NCBI RefSeq assembly: GCF_003055625.1 | Contig: NZ_CP028811.1 | Coordinates: 992,001-1,056,000 of the forward strand | Direction: 5' to 3' | Origin: Flavobacterium magnum | Lineage (GTDB): Bacteria; Bacteroidota; Bacteroidia; Flavobacteriales; Flavobacteriaceae | DNA: 64,000 nt | Shown: in pieces, positions 25,929 to 60,249 of the stretch | Numbering within the stretch: position 1 is the first letter of the stretch | Layout of the letters: each line of letters opens with the position of its first letter | Made by a program: the position numbers and the translations under genes | Notes under the pieces: generated by a model | The model's database searches: none | What the model saw: the letters and a program-made list of their open reading frames with translations, nothing else | Told to the model about the DNA's origin: nothing

Positions 25929-25985
25929 GATTTCGGTTTTGCATCCCAAATATACGGAATTCCCTTTTGGCTGGTGTCGCGTCAG

Positions 25986-26046
25986 GGACCGCAGCGGCAT
26001 CCTTTTGTGACGTGCAGCGGAACAAAAGATACAGCGGAGTGCCCGA
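25986..26046 (-). repeat. Dispersed hairpin repeat, copy C
   Basis: Read on the minus strand, this shares CCGCTGTATCTTTTGT and ACAAAAGGATGCCGCTGC with copies at 54661 and 60116, separated by a different core. ATCTTTTGT pairs with ACAAAAGGAT, leaving one bulged G. It lies upstream of the GH92 gene and has diverged most from the other two copies at its outer edges. Confidence 0.7.
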
Positions 26047-26061
26047 CCCGAAGGGTGACGC

Positions 26062-26099
26062 CAAAAAAAAGCCGCATTCAAATTAATGAACGCGGCTTT
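26062..26099 (-). terminator. Terminator of the sdh operon
   Basis: An AAAGCCGC/GCGGCTTT stem with additional TTCA/TGAA inner pairing lies 23 bp past the sdhB stop. On the minus strand it is followed by a run of eight T. Confidence 0.85.
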
Positions 26100-53332: not shown

Positions 53333-54648
53333 TGGATTTAAAAGAAAAATTGATTTCTTCCTTCATGGCATTTGAGGAAAAGATTGACGTGCATTCCGAA
53401 CTGCATGACATCCGTACTTCGGCAATCAGGAATTTTGAAAATAAGGGTTTTCCCAGTAAAAAGGAGGAAGCCTGGAGATACACCTCGCTCAATGCGGTGC
53501 TCAAGAACGATTTCACCGTGTTTCCGAAAAGTGAGAATACGATTGAATTCAGCGAAGTAAAGAAATATTTCCTGCATGAGATCGACACATACAAAGTGAT
53601 TTTCGTCGACGGCGCGTTCAGTTCATTTTTGTCTTCGACAACCCACGACGGACTCGATGTCTGCCTGATGTCGTCAGCCCTGAACAAGCCGAAGTACAAG
53701 GAAGTGATTGAAAAATATTTTAATAAAATTGCCAATAAAGACGAATCGCTTACGTCGCTTAACACGGCATTCGCCTCTGAAGGGGCGTATGTAAACATCC
53801 CGAAAGGCAAGCTCGTCGACAAACCTATTGAGATCATTTATTTTTCAACAGGAAAAGAAAATGCCCTGATGGTGCAGCCGCGTAACCTCGTCGTAGTAGG
53901 CGAAAATGCGCAGGTGCAGATCATCGAGCGCCACCAGAGCCTCAATGAGAATCCGGTGTTGACCAATTCGGTTACTGAAATCTTTGCAGAGCCGAATGCG
54001 AACGTCGACTATTATAAAATCCAAAACGATCTGCTGTCCGCAAATCTGGTCGACAACACCTATATTTCGCAGCAAAGGTCTACCAAAGTCTCCGTGCATA
54101 CCTTTTCATTCGGAGGCAACATCACCAGGAACAACCTGAATTTCTACCATTTCGGCGAAGGCATCGACAGCACTTTGAAAGGCATCACGATTATCGGCGG
54201 CAAGCAACTCGTTGACCATTATACTTTGGTGAATCACGCCACGCCGCATTGCGAAAGCCACCAGAATTACAAATGCATCCTCAATGACAGCGCCACCGGT
54301 GTTTTCAACGGCAAGATTTTCGTCGAAAAAGAAGCCCAGAAAACAGACGCTTTTCAGCAAAACAACAACATCCTGCTCAGCGACAAGGCCACGATCAACG
54401 CCAAGCCGCAACTCGAGATTTTTGCCGATGATGTGAAATGCTCACACGGCTGCACCATCGGGCAACTCGACGAGAATGCGATGTTCTACATGCAGGCGCG
54501 CGGCATCCCCAGGAAAGAGGCCAAAGCGCTACTGATGTATGCGTTTTCCAACGAAGTCCTGGACAGCGTGCGGATTCCCGAACTCAAGCAACGCATCAAT
54601 AAGATTATCGCGCAAAGGCTTGGTGTGAATCTCGGATTTGATCTGTAG
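53332..54648 (+). CDS. sufD: Fe-S cluster assembly protein SufD
   Basis: This 438-residue partner of SufB shares its beta-helical fold. KKEEAWRYTSLNAVLK near the N-terminus and DDVKCSHGCTIGQLDENAMFYMQARGIPRKEA near the C-terminus are characteristic; the CSHG histidine is conserved. The start at 53332 overlaps the sufC stop; the in-frame start at 53305 lies inside sufC and was rejected. It is the last gene of the first suf block. Confidence 0.96.
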   Translation: MDLKEKLISSFMAFEEKIDVHSELHDIRTSAIRNFENKGFPSKKEEAWRYTSLNAVLKNDFTVFPKSENTIEFSEVKKYFLHEIDTYKVIFVDGAFSSFLSSTTHDGLDVCLMSSALNKPKYKEVIEKYFNKIANKDESLTSLNTAFASEGAYVNIPKGKLVDKPIEIIYFSTGKENALMVQPRNLVVVGENAQVQIIERHQSLNENPVLTNSVTEIFAEPNANVDYYKIQNDLLSANLVDNTYISQQRSTKVSVHTFSFGGNITRNNLNFYHFGEGIDSTLKGITIIGGKQLVDHYTLVNHATPHCESHQNYKCILNDSATGVFNGKIFVEKEAQKTDAFQQNNNILLSDKATINAKPQLEIFADDVKCSHGCTIGQLDENAMFYMQARGIPRKEAKALLMYAFSNEVLDSVRIPELKQRINKIIAQRLGVNLGFDL

Positions 54649-54660
54649 TTTTTAGAAGCT

Positions 54661-54735
54661 GATCCCGCTGTCCGCTATATCTTTTCCCTGCTGTGGCCAG
54701 CAGTGAAAAGGATGCCGCTACCATCGGGGCTAGCG
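54661..54735 (+). repeat. Dispersed hairpin repeat, copy A
   Basis: It begins GATCCCGCTGTCCGCT and ends near GCCATCGGGGCTAGC-like sequence (here CCGCTACCATCGGGGCTAGC), matching copy B. The core forms a long hairpin: ATCTTTTCCCTGCTG pairs with CAGCAGTGAAAAGGAT around a TGGC loop, with one bulged base and one mismatch. The stem bases differ from copy B but pairing is kept. The right edge overlaps the last codon and stop of the serine hydrolase gene. Confidence 0.8.
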
Positions 54736-60094: not shown

Positions 60095-60115
60095 CTTTTG
60101 ATGGATCAGGAGCAT

Positions 60116-60192
60116 GATCCCGCTGTCCGCTTTATCTTTTGTTTTTTAAAGAAAAAAACAAAAGGATGCCGCTGCCATCGGGGCTAGCGTCC
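60116..60192 (+). repeat. Dispersed hairpin repeat, copy B
   Basis: It shares GATCCCGCTGTCCGCT and AAAAGGATGCCGCT plus CCATCGGGGCTAGCG with copy A at 54661. The core is ATCTTTTGTTTTTT pairing with a complementary A-rich arm around an AAAG-type loop, quite different in sequence from copy A but still self-complementary. Confidence 0.8.
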
Positions 60193-60204: not shown

Positions 60205-60249
60205 AAAATTCCGGATTCCTGTTGTCAGAATGGGAATCCGGAATTTTTT
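60205..60249. terminator. Bidirectional terminator between DUF3078 gene and hflX
   Basis: A perfect 15-bp stem (AAAATTCCGGATTCC and its complement) with a 13-nt loop is flanked by T on the plus side and A/T on the other. It can end both convergent genes. Confidence 0.9.

Follow-up and report, generated by a model that had tools for sequence, protein, structure and literature searches.

The window, that is, the whole analyzed stretch of 64,000 nucleotides of Flavobacterium magnum DNA, carries three dispersed hairpins (copies A, B and C) that had been noticed in a sequence-only reading. Both the sequence and an Rfam scan bore out these copies with the coordinates and flanks given there, though the Rfam strand is the opposite of the one reported in all three cases. 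The scan also supplied the family name that had been missing, since all three are members of Flavo-1 (RF01705), their matches covering the whole length of the model and each exceeding its gathering score of 42. No fourth copy was found in the window at this threshold. The following features were located:

25965..26052, plus strand: Flavo-1 copy C, class II according to a text rule (43.7 bits, E 4.5e-6)
26063..26096, minus strand: ordinary terminator-like hairpin with a T run, upstream of copy C, read from the sequence
54657..54735, minus strand: Flavo-1 copy A, class I (67.5 bits, E 1.2e-12)
60112..60189, minus strand: Flavo-1 copy B, class I (77.0 bits, E 2.9e-15)
60205..60249, no strand assigned: terminator-like palindrome (AAAATTCCGGATTCC / GGAATCCGGAATTTT) next to copy B and separate from Flavo-1, read from the sequence; a similar palindrome occurs in the sister genome G190 without Flavo-1

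Copy A lies between convergent gene ends, with a plus-strand ORF ending at 54648 and a minus-strand ORF ending at 54730; the gene on its left is presumably SufD, and the neighbor in the cluster presumably SufB. Copy B is also placed between convergent gene ends, while copy C is flanked by two minus-strand genes. Since the hairpin with a T run stands upstream of copy C, the latter is unlikely to act as the terminator of the preceding gene. The GATCCCGCT / GGGGCTAGC ends are missing from copy C, which falls into a second subfamily, class II. The arm AAAAGGATGCCGCT occurs three times in the window without mismatches and 18 times with up to three mismatches, compared with 7.99 occurrences expected from shuffling.

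The supposition that three copies in one window meant many per genome was confirmed by a covariance-model search of the whole genome (one contig, 3.46 Mb), which returned 97 Flavo-1 matches at E ≤1e-3, 88 of them above the gathering score; 96 were used in the later analyses, the copy at 2965878 being left out. G190 (3.55 Mb, one contig) gave 109 matches. Under strict filters, which lose weak matches, Flavo-1 was present in 57 of 61 genomes of the genus, the other four giving no match, and under equally lossy filters, with at most the 15 best matches scored per genome, in 44 of 296 genomes and 22 of 139 genera of the phylum, as well as in none of 14 control genomes.

On the Rfam strand, class I copies read CTAGCCC-x-GAT-x-G...AGCGG..ATCCTTTT-core-AAAAGAT..AGCGG..AGC-x-GGA..AGCT, while the outer arms of class II are TGCGTTAGGGAT and AGCCCGGCC..GGCAACGCC. 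The text rule assigned 66 copies to class I and 30 to class II, and with two copies moved to class I by hand the figures became 67 and 29. The inner hairpin is made up of inner arms, a TTTT/AAAA clamp with a fixed bulge, a variable stem and, often, a TTCTTTA loop; among 27-base cores this loop is common (24 of 33 in the own genome and 23 of 41 in G190), with quite different stems. The single bulged G seen originally in all three copies (an additional C in Rfam's orientation) could be located within the conserved clamp ATCCTTT / AAAGAT, both motifs of which are present in 89 of the 96 copies. It gives the hairpin a polarity, as the bulge is found on one side only, which would also be in keeping with an RNA or with a protein specific for one strand. 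In four places (G190:C1 549831, 592483 and 654649, and the G190 interval of the own copy at 733892), one arm contains an extra insertion of about 25 to 60 bases near the AGCGG block, for example TCAGTTCGCTACGCTCGGGTG at G190 654649.

Pairing was quantified in 47 class I copies, picked by length and score out of the 96. In this set, 95.3% of cells were paired (80.6 in shuffles) and the covariation score was 0.382 (0.120 in shuffles), neither value being reached in any of 500 shuffles; compensatory changes, proposed earlier as a check, were found in the form of both-sided changes at 16 of the 22 consensus pairs. The notion of conserved flanks around a changing but paired core thus held well beyond chance. 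Among the arm pairs, the four richest in information (15-83, 19-79, 23-75 and 24-74) had changed on both sides 47 times and never on one side alone (G-U), and the internal-loop bases and the bulge were nearly invariant. Strong covariation together with these invariant bases would be expected if Flavo-1 were a true structured RNA (an sRNA or an untranslated-region element) whose fold is under selection, and Rfam does file the family as an sRNA. Against this stand the four arm pairs without a single one-sided change and the balance of wobble pairs elsewhere: in the arm pairs, the middle stem and the 27-base cores minus position 5 of both genomes, G.T was found 16 times and A.C 13 times (P 0.71), which fits a DNA structure. 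At core position 5, T.G was present in 25 of 74 27-base cores, and G.T or A.C never, so that the count including this position is 41 G.T to 13 A.C; the T.G at this position would suit an RNA, or else common descent of one core type.

The orientation of the copies also bears on this question. With genes predicted by a custom-made, simple codon-usage caller, 63 of the 96 copies were assigned to tandem, 16 to divergent and 13 to convergent gaps, these 92 having an overlap of at most 25 bases with any predicted gene; the remaining four overlapped further, and we take them for the result of misplaced gene starts. In tandem gaps, 27 copies were in sense and 36 in antisense orientation (P 0.31), i.e., independent of the neighboring genes. 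No replication-strand bias was seen either (31/25 versus 18/14 copies), with replichores guessed from the GC skew of the fetched pieces, the 1000-1200 kb bin (1 plus, 7 minus) excluded, and the last bin (a single piece with positive skew) grouped with its neighbors. For F. psychrophilum, the excerpted account of its transcriptome describes Flavo-1 matches that seemed to lie indistinctly in sense or antisense, many of them outside transcribed regions, which speaks against an RNA, and several 5' transcribed regions overlapping Flavo-1 matches, which speaks for one (PMC9723704). Selection on structure, when read as selection on an RNA, is therefore unsupported by orientation, and by the wobble pairs except at one core position. 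With the replacement of inner hairpins by unrelated ones (see below) added to the opposing evidence, a structured RNA appears quite improbable as the explanation of the family, an RNA function as such being possible.

A role as a transcription terminator or as a stabilizer of mRNA 3'-ends could be suspected from the convergent position of copies A and B. By number, the window contains 32 tandem, 9 divergent and 8 convergent gaps, and by length these comprise 4222, 1916 and 408 of 6546 bases; with 13 of the 96 copies, convergent gaps are thus richer in Flavo-1 than their length predicts. In addition, when the place of copy A, downstream of the gene on its left, was inspected in 80 Flavobacterium loci using motif rules, a simple terminator was found in 30, a CGCAAAG palindrome in 24, Flavo-1 in four (all above the Rfam cut-off) and something else in 20, two loci being too short; both the simple terminators and the 24 other palindromes would agree with a terminating function. 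The location of 16 copies in divergent gaps, the occurrence of tandem copies in both orientations and the separate terminator-like hairpins of copies B and C argue against it, and we regard such a role as very improbable. Flavo-1 as an intrinsic terminator in the strict sense (a GC hairpin and then a T run, 3' of genes) was rejected, as no T run follows the core and copies are neither confined to gene ends nor to one orientation. At the Flavo-1 place of locus L139 (7330-7435) stands another palindrome, TTTAACCGCAAAG..CTTTGCGGTTAA, into which an inner hairpin is nested; palindromes of this kind occur in 24 of the 80 loci, and the one in L139 had no Rfam match at the gathering threshold.

The history of individual copies was followed by in-depth comparison with one sister genome, G190, which is 81% identical to the source genome over a 3.5-kb stretch with three ORFs. 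For 63 of the 96 own copies, G190 has a like-oriented copy with matching flanks on both sides. The parser lost 7 of the 96 own and 6 of the 109 G190 copies, leaving 58 of the 63 shared pairs, 48 of them class I. In these 48 pairs, the outer variable pair was identical in 38 (16.7 expected, 0/2000 shuffles), pair 2 in 30 (18.7 expected), the inner-loop size in 32 (28.3 expected, reached in 160/2000 shuffles) and the core length in 17 (13.1 expected, 99/2000 shuffles). The core was less than 75% identical in 43 of the 58 parsed pairs, though in a few rows arm and core were mis-split (e.g., an empty left arm), so that cores may seem more different than they are. Cores of replaced pairs were mostly still self-complementary: when up to ten of the outer positions were scored, Watson-Crick pairs made up 70% or more in 73 of 86. 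Copy A itself occupies the same site in the same orientation in G190 with a core that is 60% identical, while in the 1299861/1399668 pair, 40-base flanks of 97% identity enclose cores of 64 and 27 bases. Among the alignments listed, the inner hairpin was often different and the outer arms retained.

In the 30 class I pairs with a core identity below 0.7, the outer pair was kept in 24 (11.8 expected, 0/500), and the adjoining 12 and 14 bases fitted the true ortholog better than shuffled ones (0 and 1 of 500). With a stricter cut of 0.5 (n=15), the excess in the 3' flank was non-significant (45/500) and that of the outer pair weaker (7/500). As the outer pair and adjoining bases still indicate the true ortholog at the 0.7 cut, Flavo-1 was evidently in place before its core changed. 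Pair 2 was unchanged in 15 of 15 core-kept pairs and in 21 of 43 core-replaced ones (changed in 22 of 43); because it was altered only when the core was replaced, the replacement seems to extend outward from the tip. Furthermore, 20 of the 33 site pairs with an identical core have different outer pairs. Since the outer pair is inherited at shared sites, cores differ and still pair, and identical cores recur in different arms, the earlier idea of a hairpin whose core is replaced was substantiated. Exact donors are mostly absent, as 77 of the 89 parsed own-genome cores are unique. Gradual change may contribute too, since mean core identity was higher than with shuffled partners (0.58 versus 0.50; 0/200 shuffles) and the core-identity histogram of the 58 pairs showed no sharp bimodality.

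In 100 of 126 cases, the clamp (8 or 7 bases) was fully preserved in the two orthologs alike, while 10-13% would be expected at an assumed identity of 75%, the 40-base flanks averaging 71% and 76% and the counted copies being covariance-model finds, which favors intact ones. The conserved clamp and bulge suggest either recognition by a putative protein or constant homogenization. The former would be in line with Flavo-1 being a functional binding site for a chromosome-organizing or DNA-processing protein, kept by purifying selection, with core turnover as an incidental matter. We find this possible and somewhat doubtful: such a protein is without a candidate, four of the 61 genus genomes gave no match, a third of the sites (33/96) are unmatched in G190, and homogenization, as well as the sampling of intact copies, would yield conserved clamps too.

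For 30 of these 33 unmatched copies (copy C is among the other three), a bounded G190 interval was available, and its content was classed by reading the segments by eye. Intervals are named by the own-genome copy where a position is given:

391986, 421050, 2022997, 2677746 and 3264665 (n=5): class II-like arms around another hairpin
417811, 681978 and 733892 (n=3): interrupted Flavo-1-like copies, absent from the match list
1189759 (n=1): interval extending to a Flavo-1 copy of the match list, one of whose flanks is altered
Six intervals: a different palindrome (folding z ≤-3.9 against 60 base-composition shuffles)
Interval of copy B (n=1): a terminator-like palindrome only, Flavo-1 being absent
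355813, 1288470 and 1728498 (n=3): short, element-free
Eleven intervals: long, unclear or without an element

In the G190 gaps L276, L283, L285, L297, L298 and L302, palindromes of the AAGTTTAAAGTTT, GGTACAGGGTTCAGG, GACTGTAAGATTTT and CTGGAAGTCCGGAAGAC types take the place of Flavo-1, and intergenic gaps look as if they were niches shared by palindrome families. At six further loci (L279, L290, L292, L299, L301 and L303), class II outer arms enclose inner hairpins other than those of Flavo-1 (AGCCC..GAGGACT and AAGCAAGGTGCC..GCACC types); these are 6 of 21 text-pattern matches over G190 stretches, overlapping stretches being counted twice.

Different copies at orthologous sites could also arise if Flavo-1 were a miniature element (MITE or REP-like) mobilized by a transposase and hitting the same gaps repeatedly. 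Its dispersal between genes, its two subfamilies with conserved ends, the three short element-free gaps and the absence of copy B from G190 are what such an element would leave behind. This explanation is unlikely in view of the 63 sites common to both genomes in one orientation, and of copies with differing cores that have nonetheless inherited their outer pair and the bases next to it. Moreover, reading the segments by eye showed no target duplication, although the G190 flanks have diverged so far that the ends are hard to place and one might be present, and copy B had no match in plasmid or phage collections. Within the transposase family searched, Y1 (PF01797), the own genome had no match, while 5 of 14 controls were positive; Y1 was also absent from 5 of 15 Flavo-1-bearing genomes (G000, G004, G011, G012 and G013), and over 21 genomes its presence did not correspond to Flavo-1 copy number by inspection, without a statistic. 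A connection with a REP-type Y1/RAYT transposase, as proposed at the outset, thus found no support.

Loss of the hairpin nuclease SbcCD was considered as a driver of the spread. Among the first 14 genomes, SbcD was above cut-off in one of seven Flavo-1-rich and six of seven poor ones. In the larger set of 61 genomes (G190, the 62nd, left out; counts taken from the best 64 matches per genome), it was above cut-off in 15 (Mann-Whitney P 0.035 for copy number) and in six of the seven genomes with at most one Flavo-1 copy (Fisher P 0.0005); six SbcD-bearing genomes had from 48 to at least 64 copies. This candidate lost its support once relatedness was controlled for (PGLS on a SufB tree, lambda 1, P 0.86).

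Taken together, we consider Flavo-1 to be, more likely than not, an interspersed intergenic DNA quasi-palindrome that is independent of transcription direction, its outer arms being inherited with the site and its inner hairpin exchangeable. A more specific version, which we put forward tentatively, would have it as a modular DNA hairpin rather than an RNA gene, with a fixed outer docking stem and inner hairpins exchanged as blocks from a genome-wide pool, perhaps by polymerase template switching or by a dedicated recombination activity. The arms of Flavo-1 offer little length for homologous recombination, and neither a recombination event nor the donor of a core came to light in the comparison. 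In the proposed mechanism, the hairpin would form in single-stranded DNA or as a cruciform and stall DNA synthesis. The nascent strand might then jump to its own arm, so that pairing is regained at a stroke, or to a different family member (by template switching or conversion), in which case the core and both arms would be swapped together. As template switching would alter both sides at once, it would account for covariation nearly free of wobble intermediates, and switching within and between copies for shared cores in different arms and for the indifference to strand. In E. coli, the perfecting of quasi-palindromes by template switching is documented, according to the sections of the source available (PMC7202029).

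A covarying stem is commonly accepted as proving that an RNA structure has a function. Should paired cores indeed be swapped by a DNA process, such a signal can come about where no RNA is functional, and further RNA families defined by covariation might have to be re-examined in this light; Flavo-1, with about 100 copies in such genomes, would lend itself to a direct test. It would, in addition, exemplify repeat evolution in which the site is kept and the core exchanged, differing from the insertion-and-decay picture of REP or MITE elements. At stake is thus the nature and mode of evolution of Flavo-1 and not the naming of the family, which is known; an inherited outer stem with an inner hairpin exchanged as a paired block is apparently new to us, and a literature search, mostly short of full texts, returned no published account of core exchange in Flavo-1.

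With regard to known systems, Flavo-1 (RF01705) goes back to Weinberg et al. 2010, as far as the accessible part of that report goes (PMC2864571). The window copies resemble it in being full-length, above the gathering score and in a Bacteroidota host; they differ in that Rfam types the family as an RNA, whereas the evidence here favors a strand-indifferent DNA element, and relatives in which the same outer arms surround a different inner hairpin escape the model. Like the REP / REPIN elements associated with RAYT (TnpA-REP), as portrayed in partial sources, Flavo-1 is a short, high-copy, imperfect palindrome (97 matches) of intergenic location (92/96). Unlike them, it resides in a genome without a Y1 transposase and swaps its inner hairpin while keeping the outer arms; a GTAG/CGTC tag at the foot is a mark of REP elements, named in the title of PMC3733652. 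The closest parallel in process is template switching at quasi-palindromes, likewise a DNA process that perfects imperfect inverted repeats in one step; in the consulted portions of PMC7202029 it is described within one palindrome, whereas our proposal for Flavo-1 adds an exchange between dispersed copies.
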